DNA from: Flavobacteriaceae bacterium
GTDB taxonomy: Bacteria; Bacteroidota; Bacteroidia; Flavobacteriales; Flavobacteriaceae
Assembly: GCA_030835845.1 (NCBI GenBank)
Contig: JAUROD010000015.1
Span: 1-59,570, forward strand
Direction of reading: 5' to 3'
DNA: 59,570 bases
Shown here: one piece after another, positions 44,748 to 55,173 of the stretch
How the letters are laid out: each line of letters starts with the position of its first letter
How positions within the stretch are numbered: position 1 is the first letter of the stretch
Notes under the pieces: model-generated
Database searches by the model: none
What the model was told of the DNA's origin: nothing
Seen by the model: only the letters and a program-made list of their open reading frames with translations
Made by a program: the position numbers and the translations under genes

Positions 44748-45749
44748 ATGACTGCAATAGAACATGCTTTAACGGATAGAATTTTGGTACTTGATGGTGC
44801 TATGGGTACAATGTTGCAAGCCTATCATTTTGAGGAAGAAGATTTTCGAGGCACCCGATTTAAAGACCATCCTTCATCTTTAAAAGGGAACAACGATCTA
44901 TTGTCCTTAACTCAACCTGAGGCAATTAAAGAAGTACATAGAAGTTATTTTGAAGTGGGTGCAGATATAGTTGAAACAAACACTTTTTCTTCTACATCAA
45001 TCGGAATGGCAGATTACAACATGGAGGAATGGGTTTATGAACTCAATTATGCTTCAGCTAAATTGGCACGCGAAGTGGCAGATGAATTCACAAAAAAAAC
45101 TCCTGAAAAACCAAGATTTGTAGCAGGTTCAATAGGACCTACCAATCGAACAGCTAGCATGTCACCTGATGTCAATGATCCGGGTTTTCGCGCAGTTACT
45201 TTTGATGATTTGGTAAAGGCCTATTCAGAACAAGCTCGTGCTCTAATTGAAGGTGGTTCAGATGTTCTGCTGGTGGAGACTGTTTTTGATACCCTTAACG
45301 CGAAAGCAGCCTTATTTGCTATTGACGAGCTCAAAGAAAGCCATTACTCGGATATACCTGTTATGGTAAGTGGAACTATAACTGATGCAAGTGGAAGAAC
45401 CCTCTCTGGACAAACTGTTGAGGCTTTCGCAGTGTCTGTATCTCATATTCCTTTATTAAGTGTTGGGTTTAATTGTGCCCTAGGGGCGGATCAATTATTA
45501 CCCTATTTACGACGTTTATCCATGACTACAGATGCATTGGTGTCTGCTCACCCAAATGCAGGTTTGCCAAATGCATTTGGAGCGTATGACCAAAGCCCTA
45601 AAGAGATGGCAGATTTGATTGCCCACTATTTAGAAGAGAATTTGGTAAACATCATTGGTGGATGTTGCGGATCAACACCAGCTCATATTGAACACATTGC
45701 TAAATTGGCAGAACGCTATAAACCTCGAAAACGAAGTATTTCTGTATGA
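44748..45749 (+). CDS. metH: Methionine synthase, homocysteine-binding part (split MetH)
   Basis: 333 residues holding only the first module of cobalamin-dependent Met[18 protein letters not shown] at the N-terminus and the zinc-binding cysteines in [12 protein letters not shown] and [13 protein letters not shown] bind homocysteine. The other modules are in the next gene, whose ATG overlaps this stop (ATGA). The split is typical of Bacteroidota, and the two proteins must associate to transfer a methyl from methyltetrahydrofolate. Confidence 0.93.
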
Positions 45750-48421
45750 AGAACCGTCCGCTAATACTTTCTGGGTTAGAACCATTGGTAATAACTCCTA
45801 GTTCAAACTTTGTTAACGTAGGAGAACGAACAAATGTCACAGGGTCTCGCCGTTTTCTTCGTTTAATTGAATCCGGTGATTTTGCCTCAGCAATTGAAAT
45901 AGCTCGCGACCAAGTTGATGGTGGAGCCCAGATTCTAGATGTCAATATGGATGAGGGTATGATTGACGGAGTCAAAGCAATGACTACCTTTCTCAATTTA
46001 TTAGCTGCAGAACCAGATATTTCAAGGATTCCAATAATGATTGATTCCTCAAAATGGGAGATAATTGAGGCTGGATTGAAAGTGGTTCAAGGAAAATGTG
46101 TAGTCAATTCAATAAGCCTTAAAGAAGGAGAAGAAAACTTCATTTATCAGGCAAAAATGATCCGTCGTTATGGGGCTGCTGTAATTGTTATGGCATTTGA
46201 TGAAAAAGGACAAGCTGACACATTAGATCATCGTATTTCAATTTGTAAGCGGTCATATAAAATATTGGTTAATCGACTTAATTTTCCACCTGAGGATATC
46301 ATTTTTGATCCCAATATATTTCCCGTAGCTACAGGAATGGATGAACACAAGCGCAATGCAATTGATTTCTTTAAAACGGCTCAATGGATAAGAGAACATT
46401 TACCTCATGCACATGTTAGTGGTGGTGTAAGTAATGTTTCTTTCTCTTTCAGGGGAAACAATCGTGTTCGAGAAGCGATGCATTCTGCTTTTTTATATCA
46501 TGCAATTCAACATGGAATGAATATGGGCATTGTTAACCCAACCATGCTAGAAATTTATGATGAAATCTCACCGGATTTACTTGTACATGTTGAGGATGTA
46601 TTGCTCGATAGGCGATCAGATGCAACTGAGCGTTTATTAGATTATGCAGAACAAATCGTGGGAGATCAAAAAGTTAAAAAAGTTGAGGTAAAAGCATGGC
46701 GTAATGAAAAATTACAGAACAGAATTACACATTCACTGGTCAAGGGTATAGATGAATTTATTGAAATTGATGTGGAGGAGGCTCGTCAGTCTGTAACCAA
46801 ACCCATTGAGGTTATTGAGAGTCATTTGATGACAGGAATGAATGTAGTTGGCGATCTTTTTGGTTCGGGCAAAATGTTCTTACCACAGGTGGTCAAATCG
46901 GCACGTGTAATGAAAAAAGCAGTTGCCTATTTATTGCCATTTATCGAGGCAGAAAAGGATGGTAAACAACAAGCAGCTGGAAAAATCCTCATGGCTACAG
47001 TAAAGGGTGATGTTCATGATATTGGAAAAAATATTGTGGGAGTTGTCTTGGCATGTAATAATTACGAAATCATCGATCTAGGCGTAATGGTACCCCCAGA
47101 AAAAATCATTGAAGTTGCCATAGAACAGCAAGTAGATATCATAGGTCTTTCTGGACTTATTACACCCTCTTTAGACGAGATGATTTATATCGCCCAAGAG
47201 ATGAAACGAAAGCAATTAGAAATACCTTTGTTGATTGGTGGAGCAACAACATCAAAAGCACATACTGCGGTAAAAATTGCACCAGAAATAAAATCCACAG
47301 TCGTCCATGTGAATGATGCATCAAGGGCAGTTACTGTTACAGGTAGTTTGCTCAATAAAGAATTTTCTAAAACATATAAAGAACAAATCCGCTCAGAATA
47401 TGAAAGTTTTAGGGAAAAATTTTTGGATCGTCAAGAAACTAAAGAACATATAGGATTAACTGATGCTCGAAAAAGAAAGTTTCAGATTAACTGGGAGAAT
47501 TTTACACCCTCTGTTCCTAACAAATTAGGAGTTCACTGTATCGAAAATCAAAGTTTAGATGAACTAATTCCTTTTATAGATTGGAGTCCATTTTTTCGTT
47601 CATGGGATTTACATGGTCGTTATCCTGATATATTAAATGATAAAATAGTTGGCGAACAAGCTACTGATTTGTTTGCGGATGCTCAAGTTGTCTTATCTGA
47701 AATATTGGAAAATAAACTTCTTATAGCTAAAGCTGTCTTTGGAATTTTTCCAGCAAATTCAATAGATGATGATGATATTGAAGTCTATTCAGTTGAGGAT
47801 AAAAATAAAGTAAATACGACCTTTTTAACTCTTCGTCAACAGCTTAAAAAACGTGAAGGAAAAACAAATGTGGCTCTAGCTGATTTCATTGCACCTAAGA
47901 CAACAAAAAAAGATGATTATATCGGTGCATTTTGCGTAACTGCTGGTTTTGGTTCTGACGAATTGGCCAAAAAATACGAAGAAGAAAATGACGATTATAA
48001 CGCCATAATGGTGAAAGCTTTAGCAGATCGATTAGCCGAGGCTTTTGCAGAATATCTACATAAAGAAGTACGAACAAAACATTGGGGTTATGCATCCTCT
48101 GAGAAATTGGACAATCAAGCATTAATAAAAGAGGAATATAAAGGGATACGTCCTGCTCCTGGCTACCCAGCTTGTCCTGATCATCTAGAAAAAAATACCA
48201 TTTGGTCACTTTTAGGTGTTGAGGAAAAAATTGGTGTATATCTAACTGAAAGTTTAGCAATGTGGCCTGCCTCATCGGTTTCGGGGTACTATTTTGCAAA
48301 TCCCGAATCACATTATTTTGGTGTTGGTAAAATTACTCAAGACCAATTGAAATCATATAGTAAACGAAAACAAATTCCTTTGGAAGAAGCCGAAAAATGG
48401 CTTAGACCTAACTTAAAATAA
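45746..48421 (+). CDS. metH: Methionine synthase, folate-, cobalamin- and SAM-binding part (split MetH)
   Basis: 891 residues with three modules. Pterin-binding barrel (about 15-280, [14 protein letters not shown]), cobalamin domain (about 320-560) with [11 protein letters not shown] (base-off His ligand) and GLSGLITPS, and the reactivation domain (about 570-891) ending [15 protein letters not shown] with [15 protein letters not shown] for SAM. All parts needed besides the homocysteine module next door are present. Requires vitamin B12; no B12 riboswitch or B12-independent metE is seen in the window. Confidence 0.95.
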
Positions 48422-51067: not shown

Positions 51068-51098
51068 TTTGTTTTTTTGAACTCTGGGTGTAGATTTG
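51068..51098 (+). promoter_or_regulatory. Promoter of the aromatic operon
   Basis: TTTG at 51068-51071, 19 bases, then TAGATTTG at 51091-51098: both elements and the spacing match the Bacteroidota housekeeping promoter. Transcription should begin at about 51103-51106, leaving about 12 bases before the leader ORF. Confidence 0.75.
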
Positions 51099-51115
51099 CA
51101 ATGAATAAAGACAAA

Positions 51116-51184
51116 ATGAAAAATACATTTTTTTATTACACAGACTTTTACTACTTCTTTTCGGAGACAAGAGGGACTATGTAA
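51116..51184 (+). CDS. Phe/Tyr-rich leader peptide of the aromatic operon
   Basis: A 22-codon ORF, ATG 51116 to TAA 51182-51184, in which residues 5-8 are FFYY and 11-15 are FYYFF: nine of 22 residues are Phe or Tyr, the products of the operon it precedes. It continues SETRGTM. Such clusters mark attenuation leaders, where ribosome stalling on scarce charged tRNA prevents terminator formation. A second ATG in frame lies at 51101, but it probably precedes or touches the transcription start. No homologue is claimed; identification rests on codon content and position. Confidence 0.72.
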   Translation: MKNTFFYYTDFYYFFSETRGTM

Positions 51185-51240
51185 TATTAAAATTACACGA
51201 TAATAAAAAGTCCTGACATTTGTTCGGGACTTTTTTTTTG
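51173..51240 (+). terminator. Attenuator before pheA: competing segment and intrinsic terminator
   Basis: Terminator: AAAAAGTCCTGA (51205-51216) with TTCGGGACTTTTT (51224-51236), 7-nt loop, nine T (51231-51239), 15 bases before pheA. GGGACT at 51173-51178, at the end of the leader ORF, duplicates the terminator's 3' arm and can pair with AGTCCT (51209-51214). A small hairpin TGTAAT/ATTACA (51180-51197) lies between. A ribosome stalled on the Phe/Tyr codons would leave 51173-51178 free; one reaching the stop would cover it. Confidence 0.75.
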
Positions 51241-51254
51241 AGATAAATTAATCG

Positions 51255-52082
51255 ATGAGTAATAAAATTGCAATTCAGGGTATTAAGGGTTCATTTCACC
51301 ATGTTGTGGCACTTGAATACTATGGTTTGGATGTTGATACATTAGAATGCCTAAGTTTTGATGCACTAGTTCAAAGTATAATTGATGAAAAATCAGTTGA
51401 GGGAGTTATGGCAATTGAAAATTCTATCGCAGGTTCTATTATTCCTAATTATGCATTGATTGATTCTAATAATTTATCAATTGTTGGGGAATATAATTTG
51501 ACAATTAACCATAATTTAATGACTCTAAAAGATCAGTCAATAAATGATTTAGATGAAGTTCATTCCCATCCAATGGCATTACTTCAATGTAAAGATTTTT
51601 TTAAATCCTACCCCCATATCCGATTAATAGAGGCTGCCGATACAGCTGATGTTGCACGTTCAATTTCTGAAGATAATCTTCAAAGAATAGGGGCTATTGC
51701 ACCAAAAGAAGCAGCAACAATATACGGATTGGATATTTTAGCAGAATCAATTCAAACTATTCAGGATAACGTGACTCGATTTGTTGTTGTTCAAAAAAAG
51801 AACGGTTCACTAAGTGAGTCTAAAATAAATAAAGCTTCATTGAAGTTTATTCTTGACCACCAAAGAGGAAGCCTTGCTGCAGTTCTCAATGTAATGAGTG
51901 ACTGTCTTTTAAATTTAACAAAAATTCAGTCCCTACCAGTCATCCAAATCCCTGGAAAGTATGCCTTTTTTGTAGATGTAACTTTTGAGACATTTGAACA
52001 ATATAAAAAAGCAAAATCAATCCTGTCTATAATGGCACTCGAATTTAAAATATTAGGTGAATACGCCAACGCAAAGCAATGA
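51255..52082 (+). CDS. pheA: Prephenate dehydratase
   Basis: Converts prephenate to phenylpyruvate. 275 residues without a chorismate mutase domain. MAIENSIAGSIIPNYALI and QDNVTRFVVVQK (catalytic TRF) are intact. The C-terminal ACT domain (about 195-275) has LTKIQSLPVIQIPGKYAFF, where most feedback-regulated enzymes have ESRP, so phenylalanine binding may be weak. First gene of the operon behind the attenuator; its last bases overlap the aminotransferase start. Confidence 0.94.
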   Translation: MSNKIAIQGIKGSFHHVVALEYYGLDVDTLECLSFDALVQSIIDEKSVEGVMAIENSIAGSIIPNYALIDSNNLSIVGEYNLTINHNLMTLKDQSINDLDEVHSHPMALLQCKDFFKSYPHIRLIEAADTADVARSISEDNLQRIGAIAPKEAATIYGLDILAESIQTIQDNVTRFVVVQKKNGSLSESKINKASLKFILDHQRGSLAAVLNVMSDCLLNLTKIQSLPVIQIPGKYAFFVDVTFETFEQYKKAKSILSIMALEFKILGEYANAKQ

Positions 52083-53230
52083 AAGTAGAAACTGCAACTC
52101 GACTGGAAAGTGTAAAAGAATATTACTTCTCTAAAAAATTAAGAGAAGTTGCTGGTCTTATCCAATCAGGTAAGCCAATTTTGAATATGGGAATTGGCAG
52201 TCCAGACCTACCACCTCATCCAAACGTTGTCTCTGCATTAGAAAAAAGCCTTACTCATCCCAAGGCACATATGTATCAGAGTTATCAGGGATTACCCGAG
52301 TTACGTGAAGCTATGGCAGGTTTTTACCAAACTAATTATGAGGTAAAACTTGACCCAAAAAGTGAGTTACTACCATTAATGGGGTCTAAAGAGGGGATAA
52401 TGCACATTTCAATGGCATTTCTTAACCCTGGAGATGAGGTTTTAATTCCTAACCCTGGATATCCTACCTATGCCTCAGTAACTAAGTTGGTTCAGGCAAA
52501 ACCAGTTTTTTATGCGCTTAAAGAGGAAAACAATTGGCAACCAGATTTCAATACTTTAGATGCGCTGGATACTTCTAAAATTAAATTAATGTGGATTAAT
52601 TATCCACATATGCCAACAGGAGCAAGGGCAGATAGAAGTACTTTTGAACGTCTTGTACTTTGGGCAAAAGCTAGTTCAATTTTACTTGTTAACGACAATC
52701 CTTACAGCTTTATTTTGAACTCAAACCCAGTGAGTTTATTAAGTATTCCTGAGGCAAAAGAAGTAGTTTTAGAGCTTAATTCATTGAGTAAATCTTTTAA
52801 TATGGCAGGTTGGCGAGTAGGTATGTTGGTAGGAAATGCTTCGCTTATTGAGTCTGTACTTAAAGTAAAAAGCAACATGGATTCAGGAATGTTTTTCGGA
52901 ATTCAACATGGAGCAATTGCAGCTTTACAAACCTCTCGTTCTTGGTTTGATGAATTGAATGAAGTATATCGAAAACGACGTGTTTTGGTTGAAGAATTAG
53001 CTGCTTTAATGGACACTACTTTCGACTCAAATAGCGTTGGAATGTTTGTCTGGGCTAAATTGAATGATAGCTCGATTTTATCCGAGGCATTTATAGATAA
53101 AATTTTATACGAAAAGCATTTATTTATAACTCCTGGAACCATTTTTGGAAGTCAAGGAGAGGGCTATATTCGTTTTTCTCTATGTTTAAAAGAAGAACAA
53201 ATTCTGGAAGCAATAAAACGAATGAAATAA
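52079..53230 (+). CDS. Class I/II aminotransferase of the aromatic operon
   Basis: 383 residues. GIGSPDLPPHPNVV and LLPLMGSKEGIM (cofactor phosphate) are seen, with NYPHMPTGA, VNDNPYSF and the Schiff-base Lys in NSLSKSFNMAGWRVG. It likely transaminates phenylpyruvate or hydroxyphenylpyruvate to Phe or Tyr, given pheA before and tyrA after it with overlapping ends (4 bases and 1 base). The usual NPTG motif reads HMPTG. Specificity is inferred from context. Confidence 0.88.
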   Translation: MKVETATRLESVKEYYFSKKLREVAGLIQSGKPILNMGIGSPDLPPHPNVVSALEKSLTHPKAHMYQSYQGLPELREAMAGFYQTNYEVKLDPKSELLPLMGSKEGIMHISMAFLNPGDEVLIPNPGYPTYASVTKLVQAKPVFYALKEENNWQPDFNTLDALDTSKIKLMWINYPHMPTGARADRSTFERLVLWAKASSILLVNDNPYSFILNSNPVSLLSIPEAKEVVLELNSLSKSFNMAGWRVGMLVGNASLIESVLKVKSNMDSGMFFGIQHGAIAALQTSRSWFDELNEVYRKRRVLVEELAALMDTTFDSNSVGMFVWAKLNDSSILSEAFIDKILYEKHLFITPGTIFGSQGEGYIRFSLCLKEEQILEAIKRMK

Positions 53231-54087
53231 TGAAGTTGTATGTCATTGGAATCGGTTTAATTGGTGGGTCTATGGCAATAGATTTAAAAAATCTGTACCC
53301 TTCAATGGAAGTGATTGGAATTGATAACAATGAGACTCATTTAGACCAAGCATTGAAACTTGGTATTATAGATAAAAAGGGGACATTAGATGAGCTTTAT
53401 CAGGCTGACCGAATCATTTTAAGTATCCCAGTTAAGGACTCTGTTATACTTCTTCCAAAAATTTTGGATATGGTGCATACTGATGCTCTTGTTTGGGATG
53501 TTGGTTCAACAAAGTCTCAATTATGTAACGTTGTAAATACGCATCCAAAACGTCAAAACTTTTTAGCTGCCCATCCAATTGCAGGGACTGAATTTTCAGG
53601 ACCCTCTTATGCACAAGAGGGACTGTTTCAGGGTAAACCACAAATTTTATGTGAAAGCAAATCCACTCGACCTGACCTTCTGTCTTGGGCGAAAACTGCA
53701 TTTAGAGAAATTGGAATGTACTTAAGGTTTATGGATGCACAAGAACATGATAAACATATGGCATATGTATCTCACTTATCTCATATAAGTTCTTTTATGT
53801 TAGGTAAAACAGTTTTGGAAAGAGAAGACGATGAACAGAATATTTTTGATTTAGCAGGCAGTGGATTCGAGTCTACGGTTCGTTTGGCAAAAAGTTCTCC
53901 AGATATGTGGACTCCTATTTTCGAGCAAAATAAAGAGAATGTCATCGATATATTATCAGCATACATAGAAAACTTAGAAAACTTTAAACATAAACTGGTT
54001 CAAAATGATTTTGATGATTTGTATCAGCAAATGAAATTAACAAATCAATTAACAACAATTCTAAACGGAATAAAACCCAATAATTAA
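53230..54087 (+). CDS. tyrA: Prephenate dehydrogenase
   Basis: Oxidises prephenate to hydroxyphenylpyruvate. 285 residues; NAD-binding GIGLIGGSMAIDL at the N-terminus and the catalytic His region LAAHPIAGTE. No ACT or mutase domain. The start is the ATG at 53230, overlapping the aminotransferase stop by one base; the frame extends upstream to 53182 but that is inside the previous gene. Ends three bases before the DAHP synthase gene. Confidence 0.92.
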   Translation: MKLYVIGIGLIGGSMAIDLKNLYPSMEVIGIDNNETHLDQALKLGIIDKKGTLDELYQADRIILSIPVKDSVILLPKILDMVHTDALVWDVGSTKSQLCNVVNTHPKRQNFLAAHPIAGTEFSGPSYAQEGLFQGKPQILCESKSTRPDLLSWAKTAFREIGMYLRFMDAQEHDKHMAYVSHLSHISSFMLGKTVLEREDDEQNIFDLAGSGFESTVRLAKSSPDMWTPIFEQNKENVIDILSAYIENLENFKHKLVQNDFDDLYQQMKLTNQLTTILNGIKPNN

Positions 54088-54090
54088 ATT

Positions 54091-55173
54091 ATGGAAAACA
54101 CACCTGTAATGCGAAAATGGTTAAATGACTTTGGTCTTTCGCACCCGCTAGTCATCGGTGGTCCTTGTAGTGCCGAAACAGAAGAACAAGTAATGAAAAT
54201 TGCAAATGAATTAAAAGATACTGACGTGACTGTTTATCGTGCAGGCATATGGAAACCTCGTACACGTCCAGGAAATTTTGAAGGTGTTGGAGCAATTGGT
54301 TTGAAATGGCTTCAACGTGTAAAAAAAGAAACAGGCTTACTCACTGCTACTGAGGTTGCGAACAAAGACCATGTGAAACTTGCTCTTGAACACGACATTG
54401 ATATATTATGGATTGGTGCTCGTTCAACAGTAAGTCCCTTTATTGTTCAAGAAATTGCAGATGCCCTAGAGGGGACTGATAAAATTGTATTGGTCAAAAA
54501 TCCTGTAAATCCAGACGTGGCTTTATGGCTTGGTGGTGTAGAAAGACTGTATTCTGCAAACATTAAAAACTTAGGGCTTATTCACCGAGGGTTCTCTACC
54601 TATGAAAAAACAAAATACCGTAACAATCCAGAATGGCAAATAGCAGTTGAGGTTCAGAATAGATTTCCTGATTTACCTTTGATATGCGATCCATCACACA
54701 TTACAGGAAAACGAGATATGATTTTTGATGCTTGTCAAATGGCACTAGACTTAAACTTTGATGGGTTAATGATAGAAAGTCATTGGGATCCCGATAATGC
54801 TTGGAGTGATGCAGCTCAACAAGTTACTCCATCAAGATTAGTTCAAATTATGAAAGATTTGAAGATTAGAAAACCTACTACAAATGAAGAAAATTACCAA
54901 ACTGAGCTTCAAAATCTACGTGCTCAAATTGACATAGCTGATCAAACAATTCTCGATACTCTTGGTAAACGTATGAAGGTGGCTGAGGCAATTGGGGAAT
55001 TGAAAAAAGCAAATAATGTTGCTGTTTTACAGAACAAACGCTGGAATGAGATTCTTGGGAAAATGGTTCTTGAGGGAGAAGACCGCGGACTTTCAGAAGA
55101 ATTTGTTTTAAAATTATTTAAAGCAATTCACCAAGAGTCTATTAACCATCAAGAACAGATTGTAAAATACTAA
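54091..55173 (+). CDS. DAHP synthase / chorismate mutase fusion
   Basis: 360 residues. Residues 1-265 are a type I-beta (KDO8P synthase-like) 3-deoxy-7-phosphoheptulonate synthase with VIGGPCSAETEEQV, GIWKPRTRPGNFEG and ICDPSHITGKRDM. About 270-360 is an AroQ-type chorismate mutase with LRAQIDIADQTILDTLGKRM. The order is synthase then mutase, known in Bacteroidota. It supplies both the first shikimate step and prephenate, so the operon covers entry and the Phe/Tyr branch. The mutase domain may serve as the feedback sensor of the synthase. Confidence 0.94.
   Translation: MENTPVMRKWLNDFGLSHPLVIGGPCSAETEEQVMKIANELKDTDVTVYRAGIWKPRTRPGNFEGVGAIGLKWLQRVKKETGLLTATEVANKDHVKLALEHDIDILWIGARSTVSPFIVQEIADALEGTDKIVLVKNPVNPDVALWLGGVERLYSANIKNLGLIHRGFSTYEKTKYRNNPEWQIAVEVQNRFPDLPLICDPSHITGKRDMIFDACQMALDLNFDGLMIESHWDPDNAWSDAAQQVTPSRLVQIMKDLKIRKPTTNEENYQTELQNLRAQIDIADQTILDTLGKRMKVAEAIGELKKANNVAVLQNKRWNEILGKMVLEGEDRGLSEEFVLKLFKAIHQESINHQEQIVKY

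Follow-up and report, generated by a model that had tools for sequence, protein, structure and literature searches.

Upstream of a pheA gene in a Flavobacteriaceae bacterium lies a short open reading frame (ORF) rich in Phe and Tyr codons, and the question is whether it controls the aromatic operon behind it as the leader peptide of a transcription attenuator. The window, i.e. the whole stretch of DNA analysed, comprises 59,570 nucleotides; the assembly of the source genome is 83.8% complete with 1.56 Mb. The original prediction of such an attenuator had named an exact TTTG-N19-TAnnTTTG promoter, a 22-codon ORF with the motifs FFYY and FYYFF, a GGGACT segment at the ORF's end that can pair with AGTCCT in the terminator's 5' arm, and a 12-bp terminator with nine T located 15 bases before pheA. 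All of these were identified in the sequence, each of them with single-base agreement (Table 1).

Table 1. Features of the pheA leader and its operon in the window
Feature	Position	Strand	Basis and details
Promoter TTTG-N19-TAGATTTG, Bacteroidota -33/-7 type, predicted	51068-51098	+	Sequence; TTTG at 51068-51071, 19-nt spacer, TAGATTTG at 51091-51098
Leader ORF MKNTFFYYTDFYYFFSETRGTM, 22 codons plus stop	51116-51184	+	Sequence, conservation, Phe+Tyr fraction; ATG at 51116, TAA at 51182-51184
Control codons FFYY-TD-FYYFF, putative stall site of a starved ribosome	51128-51160	+	Sequence; 17 relatives
Region 2, GGGACT, antiterminator 5' arm, within the last ORF codons	51173-51178	+	Pairing with AGTCCT, 51209-51214
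Small hairpin TGTAAT/ATTACA inside the antiterminator	51180-51197	+	Predicted fold alone
Intrinsic terminator	51205-51239	+	Sequence, fold; 5' arm 51205-51216, loop 51217-51223, 3' arm 51224-51235, T run 51231-51239
pheA, prephenate dehydratase, first operon gene	51255-52082	+	NCBIfam PRK11898, E 7.7e-56, 189.3 bits, below cut-off 219; ATG at 51255 after 15 bases (51240-51254)
Aminotransferase, 4-base overlap with pheA	52079-53230	+	Best NCBIfam match LL-diaminopimelate aminotransferase subfamily, 401 bits, cut-off 507
tyrA, prephenate dehydrogenase	53182-54087	+	NCBIfam PRK08507, 355.3 bits, above cut-off 295; start taken as 53230 in searches
DAHP synthase with chorismate mutase domain	54091-55173	+	NCBIfam PRK12595, 188.7 bits, cut-off 279; weaker chorismate mutase matches as well

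Nine of the 22 codons of the leader ORF specify Phe or Tyr, and this fraction of 0.41 was the highest among the 630 ATG-initiated ORFs of 12 to 35 codons on both strands of the window. The ORF list of the window shows the leader only inside a longer ORF with a TTG start (51077-51184). An in-frame ATG at 51101 was rejected as the leader start in favour of 51116, because the ORFs of close relatives begin at the latter position and transcription from the predicted promoter would itself start close to 51101. In an ungapped comparison with 17 close relatives codons 7 and 11 to 15 were aromatic in 16 to 17 of them, codon 5 in 13, codon 6 in 8 and codon 8 in 14. Phe and Tyr replaced each other mainly at codons 12 and 15, so that selection seems to act on aromatic codons as a class. 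The predicted use of both amino acids held for a set of 126 leaders with means of 4.8 Phe and 3.7 Tyr codons. Tyr codons were missing from a single one (L182), 50 contained a Trp codon, and both synonymous codons were in use for either amino acid (377 TTT, 233 TTC, 314 TAT and 156 TAC).

The promoter consensus of the -33/-7 type is quoted in the accessible parts of PMC7366714 and PMC6847099, and a promoter at the pheA leader is predicted to be active. Of 124 loci, 60 had an exact TAnnTTTG box that ended 2 to 45 nt 5' of the ATG of the leader, compared with 5% of shuffles, and the other 64 had no exact box. In 45 of the 60 it lay 15 to 20 nt from the ATG; over all 126 loci there were 47 counts of TTTG exactly 19 nt 5' of the box. 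The distances between box and ATG in relatives suggest that the untranslated 5' end of the transcript is about a dozen bases long. Initiation of transcription 3' of 51184 had been named in advance as evidence against the leader; judged indirectly by the boxes at these 60 loci, transcription probably starts ahead of the ORF.

Between the leader ORF and the first gene lies the intrinsic terminator with the arms AAAAAGTCCTGA and TCGGGACTTTTT, which form 12 pairs, one of them G-U, around a 7-nt loop. The fold had a z of -3.6, and 1 of 200 shuffles was equally stable. A simple terminator scan of the window did not list it, we think because A/T pairs were counted into the stem, leaving too few T. 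The alternative pairing of GGGACT with AGTCCT comprises five Watson-Crick pairs and one G-U pair. In the window this antiterminator is a 6-bp helix of -7.5 kcal/mol compared with -13.8 kcal/mol for the terminator; the antiterminator piece had a z of -2.3 with 7 of 200 shuffles as stable. The region from 51101 to 51255 as a whole reached a z of -3.2, and none of 200 shuffles was as stable. Folded alone, the whole leader RNA was predicted to adopt the terminator and not the antiterminator, as expected without a ribosome.

A terminator was present 3' of the leader in all of 100 loci examined. With kinship among the sequences weighing on all pairing and covariation tests, 98.4% of the cells of the terminator helix were paired in an alignment of 37 leaders and three pairs had changed on both sides, while 74.2% of the cells were paired in the antiterminator helix. 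Covarying arms, proposed as a check by the original prediction, were observed for both alternative helices: in the antiterminator 18 cells had changed on both sides compared with 4.8 in shuffles (0/500), and the covariation score peaked at register 0, the true register. Yet two other measures of the antiterminator in these 37 leaders showed no excess over shuffles: 2 pairs had changes on both sides compared with 1.8, and there were 10 further pair types compared with 10.0.

The fit between the end of each leader and its own terminator arm was evaluated by duplex energies at 126 loci. Cognate duplexes had -10.84 kcal/mol, permuted ones -7.64 kcal/mol (sd 0.19) and shuffled sequences -4.61 kcal/mol. 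None of 2000 permutations was as good as the cognate duplexes, in a test that leaves relatedness in, 16 pairs of the compared upstreams being near-identical in part. Matched arms in relatives included GGGAC/GTCCC, GAGAC/GTCTC, GGGAT/ATCCC, AAGGCT/AGCCTT and GAGCGGTC/GACCGCTC. Of the 43 loci that remained in the wider set, 17 did not enter the duplex test (no scripted leader or terminator, or skipped). Left out yet leader-bearing on reading were L188, L196, L198, L201 and L206; L177, L226 and L228, also left out, have leaders with hairpins missed by the script, and the scripted hairpin of L181 looks wrong.

A ribosome reaches about 10 nt beyond its A-site codon. Thus a stall on the aromatic codons would leave region 2 free, while a ribosome on the stop codon would cover it. 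The spacing, which had been predicted to be right, agrees with this geometry: the gap between the last aromatic codon and region 2 was 12 nt in the window and 3 to 15 nt among the 126 loci, with 7 to 11 nt in 107 of them. The start of region 2 fell within the last 20 nt ahead of the stop codon in 112 loci and farther upstream in 5. In the remaining 9 it began at or after the stop, which makes masking by a terminating ribosome less obvious.

Direct observation covers the individual parts and how they are conserved, the fit of both alternative helices, and the spacing. The parts comprise a short ORF with clustered codons for the end products of the operon and a terminator behind it and, as judged by pairing and spacing, an antiterminator that would exclude the terminator and whose 5' part could be masked. 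The best explanation in our view is the one originally proposed: the leader is very probably a transcription attenuator through which the translating ribosome controls the Phe/Tyr operon. Transcription would begin a few bases after TAGATTTG, and the first ribosome would load at the ATG at 51116. With plentiful charged Phe- and Tyr-tRNA the ribosome would translate the leader ORF up to the stop at 51182 and cover GGGACT, so that the hairpin 51205-51235 could form and transcription would end. When either tRNA is scarce the ribosome would halt on one of the two aromatic runs, FFYY and FYYFF, with 12 nt or more still to go before GGGACT. The free GGGACT would then pair with AGTCCT and block the terminator, and RNA polymerase would read through into pheA, the aminotransferase gene, tyrA and the gene of DAHP synthase/chorismate mutase.

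The same ORF might encode a small functional protein, the hairpin being merely its ordinary terminator. A conserved reading frame and third codon positions that vary more per site would suit this explanation; differences at positions 1 and 2 together and at position 3 numbered 879 and 1032 in a group of 20 leaders, 686 and 413 in one of 16, and 94 and 103 in one of 8. However, the peptide is variable outside the aromatic run, Phe and Tyr exchange, and the end of the ORF fits the terminator arm at the DNA level, locus by locus. Furthermore, with only 15 bases between terminator and pheA the gene seems dependent on the leader promoter, and we regard a small protein as highly improbable.

The mutually exclusive helices would serve a riboswitch or a T-box equally well, i.e. 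a 5' RNA that governs the terminator by binding a ligand or tRNA, with the ORF being incidental. Rfam yielded no family at gathering score in eight loci including that of the window. The best match at the window leader was sub-threshold (BSnc120, 24.9 bits, cut-off 114), that to Phe_leader (RF01859) scored 19.6 bits with a cut-off of 55, and T-box was absent from the matches up to E 5. Bacteroid-trp (RF01692) was likewise absent from these 17 matches and from the eight loci. Apart from the aromatic codons, both helices and the T run, the 37-leader alignment showed no conserved core, and aromatic codons were retained even in very divergent relatives; a ligand- or tRNA-binding RNA is thus about as improbable as the small protein. 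A protein acting in trans, like TRAP of Bacillus, could bind the leader RNA without involvement of the ribosome. Sequence alone is compatible with such a protein, but the codon run is the sole conserved repeated RNA motif in the same alignment, and we consider this the least probable of the alternatives. Control by the translating ribosome is the reading that we favor.

Conservation of the short ORF and its terminator in relatives, on which the original prediction had made itself depend, was extensive. The sample was non-random and took best matches first. Of its 194 distinct upstreams, 166 had a leader before pheA as judged by direct scans together with reading, and a leader model added one more (L023) to make 167. 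The counts by set were 100/101, 34/43, 29/29, 3/19 and 0/2 (G040, G053). A leader-type ORF occurred in 100 of 101 real pheA upstreams compared with 217 of 2020 dinucleotide shuffles of them. The ORF criterion alone is loose, ORFs of L185 and L144 passing by chance, and positives were judged on aromatic run, position and hairpin; L188, L196 and L206 were recognised by eye. Set aside before counting were L095 (no upstream), 8 duplicates, L209-L225 (repeats of family loci), 11 further duplicates and L267 (repeats G173); a cross-check showed that the sets share no other repeats. Positives span other families of the order and other families of the class, and include four genomes labelled with the same phylum only (L160, L165, L166, L249).

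No leader was found in 27 of the 194 upstreams as scanned, L023 not being counted among them. These belong to G047, G173, G158, G040 and G053, three small f16 genomes (600 kb), three f22 genomes with pheA directly after an apparent other coding sequence, and 16 more distant pheA genes. As far as these upstreams tell, the leader is missing in several lineages.

The leader model was built from the 37 aligned leaders and searched in 60 genomes, 42 of which had matches. All 41 places with E ≤ 5.4e-4 (40 genomes) were upstream of pheA matches, and the idea that the same leader also precedes other operons was dropped. Thirteen weaker places (E 0.001-0.01) sit away from pheA and are probably due to chance. 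Seven pheA genomes lacked a model match at pheA (G022, G038, G040, G044, G047, G053, G057), four of which (G022, G038, G044, G057) have leaders by direct scan. A model match in G006 (partial pheA) stands outside the tally. At L023 (G031), missed by the direct scan, the leader lies about 0.5 kb farther upstream with its own terminator next. Repeat copies with a GCGGGAT-type hairpin occupy the space between attenuator and pheA (G031:C21, L127, ~149230-149750), so that the leader appears displaced by them.

Individual leaders deviated in form. The leader ORF of L196 (G191) comprises 40 codons and carries its aromatic run in the latter half, and that of L206 (G297) seems to start with GTG. Tandem pairs of aromatic leader ORFs were seen at L182 (G059), L201 (G249), L265 (G333) and L198 (G217), on reading with a terminator-like hairpin 3' of the ORFs. 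The upstream of pheA in the genus-mate G015 (L005) was identical to L033 (Candidatus Arcticimaribacter).

The operon behind the leader kept its four-gene order in 44 of 60 loci. In the window only the dehydrogenase passed its curated cut-off, while the other three products scored below theirs; the role of the aminotransferase in the aromatic pathway is suggested by gene context. The idea that leader codons track operon content gained no support. A tyrA of this type went undetected in 6 of 11 genomes searched, and five of the six (G025, G030, G257, G273, G293) retain Tyr codons. The sixth, G059, would fit the idea, as no such tyrA was found in this genome (83% complete) and its two tandem leaders, both matched by the leader model, have no Tyr codon. 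The pheA match of G059 (G059:C25:19052-19609) stops at query residue 187 of 275 in a frame of 203 codons, open when one in-frame TAG is counted, and an aminotransferase match starts soon after. The C-terminal regulatory part may therefore be missing.

The enterobacterial pheA attenuator (RF01859), whose leader in E. coli is pheL, likewise has a control-codon leader peptide and mutually exclusive antiterminator and terminator before pheA. The enteric leader uses Phe codons alone ahead of pheA alone, whereas the leader in the window combines Phe with Tyr codons, serves an operon of four Phe/Tyr genes and lies behind a Bacteroidota promoter. The aroR-aroF attenuator of C. glutamicum, in another phylum and before another operon, is of a similar type with a Phe-dependent leader peptide ahead of the DAHP synthase gene. 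In the part of PMC1183508 available to us pheA is named among the attenuated operons of E. coli. Within the phylum, accessible sections of PMC2864571 and PMC6414381 present Bacteroid-trp (RF01692) as a cis-regulatory RNA and leader of an amino acid operon; it resembles the pheA leader in this respect and differs in operon and codons. Matches to RF01692 occurred in 9 of 40 genomes, four above the cut-off. The one in the source genome (L273, G000:C4:3931-4039) had 47.1 bits with a cut-off of 49 and overlaps a short ORF, MKIRYSIINWWNE, with two Trp codons. On reading, 13 of 15 hisG loci, that of the source genome among them, have a leader with His codons upstream; the other two (L243, L247) are ambiguous. 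Together with the Trp-codon ORF these leaders make attenuation look common in the lineage. In the hisG upstream of the source genome (L239, G000:C5) the leader ORF MKKTYTHSHHLIFLSNES is followed by a terminator, the 5' arm of which, CCCGTTTG, can pair with CAAACGAG in the end of the ORF.

The original prediction knew of no described example in the phylum, and this part has to be withdrawn. A study of F. psychrophilum from 2021 (PMC9723704) reports, in its main text, strong clues for leader-peptide attenuation before amino acid operons and a structured element 5' of pheA that occurs in other Flavobacteriaceae genera and has no Rfam hit. That element shares gene and bacterial family with ours and is probably the same, so that the pheA leader cannot be called undescribed. 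The main-text account gives no peptide, codons or antiterminator and is limited to Flavobacteriaceae; the supplement may say more. Judged by our comparison, the range of the leader is wider than this account states. Short ORFs reminiscent of attenuation leaders appear for B. thetaiotaomicron in the accessible part of PMC7366714. Titles and abstract openings of the literature searched contained no description of a Bacteroidota leader peptide with Phe and Tyr codons. Predictions for this phylum may be contained in Vitreschak 2004 and Lopatovskaya 2010. We favor the view that the pheA leader is a genuine attenuator of a known kind, strongly conserved and mixed in its aromatic codons, the mechanism of which we infer from anatomy and comparison.

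Shine-Dalgarno sequences are absent from members of the phylum according to the accessible text of PMC6847099. We propose tentatively, being nearly evenly divided and leaning slightly against, that the leader is a phylum-wide OR-gate attenuator that senses the scarcest aromatic amino acid. Phe and Tyr codons would be largely interchangeable, the enzymes of both branches and the entry enzyme would be set together, the device would be doubled in several lineages, and it would work without a Shine-Dalgarno sequence from a 5' end that precedes the start codon by only a dozen bases or so. Because of the latter two features transcription and the first ribosome would have to be tightly timed in Bacteroidota. 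If so, classical attenuation would be old and widespread in a phylum whose sigma factor is unusual and which lacks Shine-Dalgarno sequences, and the leading ribosome would have to match the pace of RNA polymerase soon after transcription begins. The pheA leader would offer a testable reporter for ribosome/polymerase coupling in Bacteroidota, and it points to an RNA family that Rfam does not contain and to one switch that would respond to two or three amino acids from the same branched pathway.

Elsewhere in the window, the MetH-like protein encoded at 45746-48421 aligns from position 344 of profile NF007024, i.e. the ORF has no counterpart of the profile's N-terminal part.
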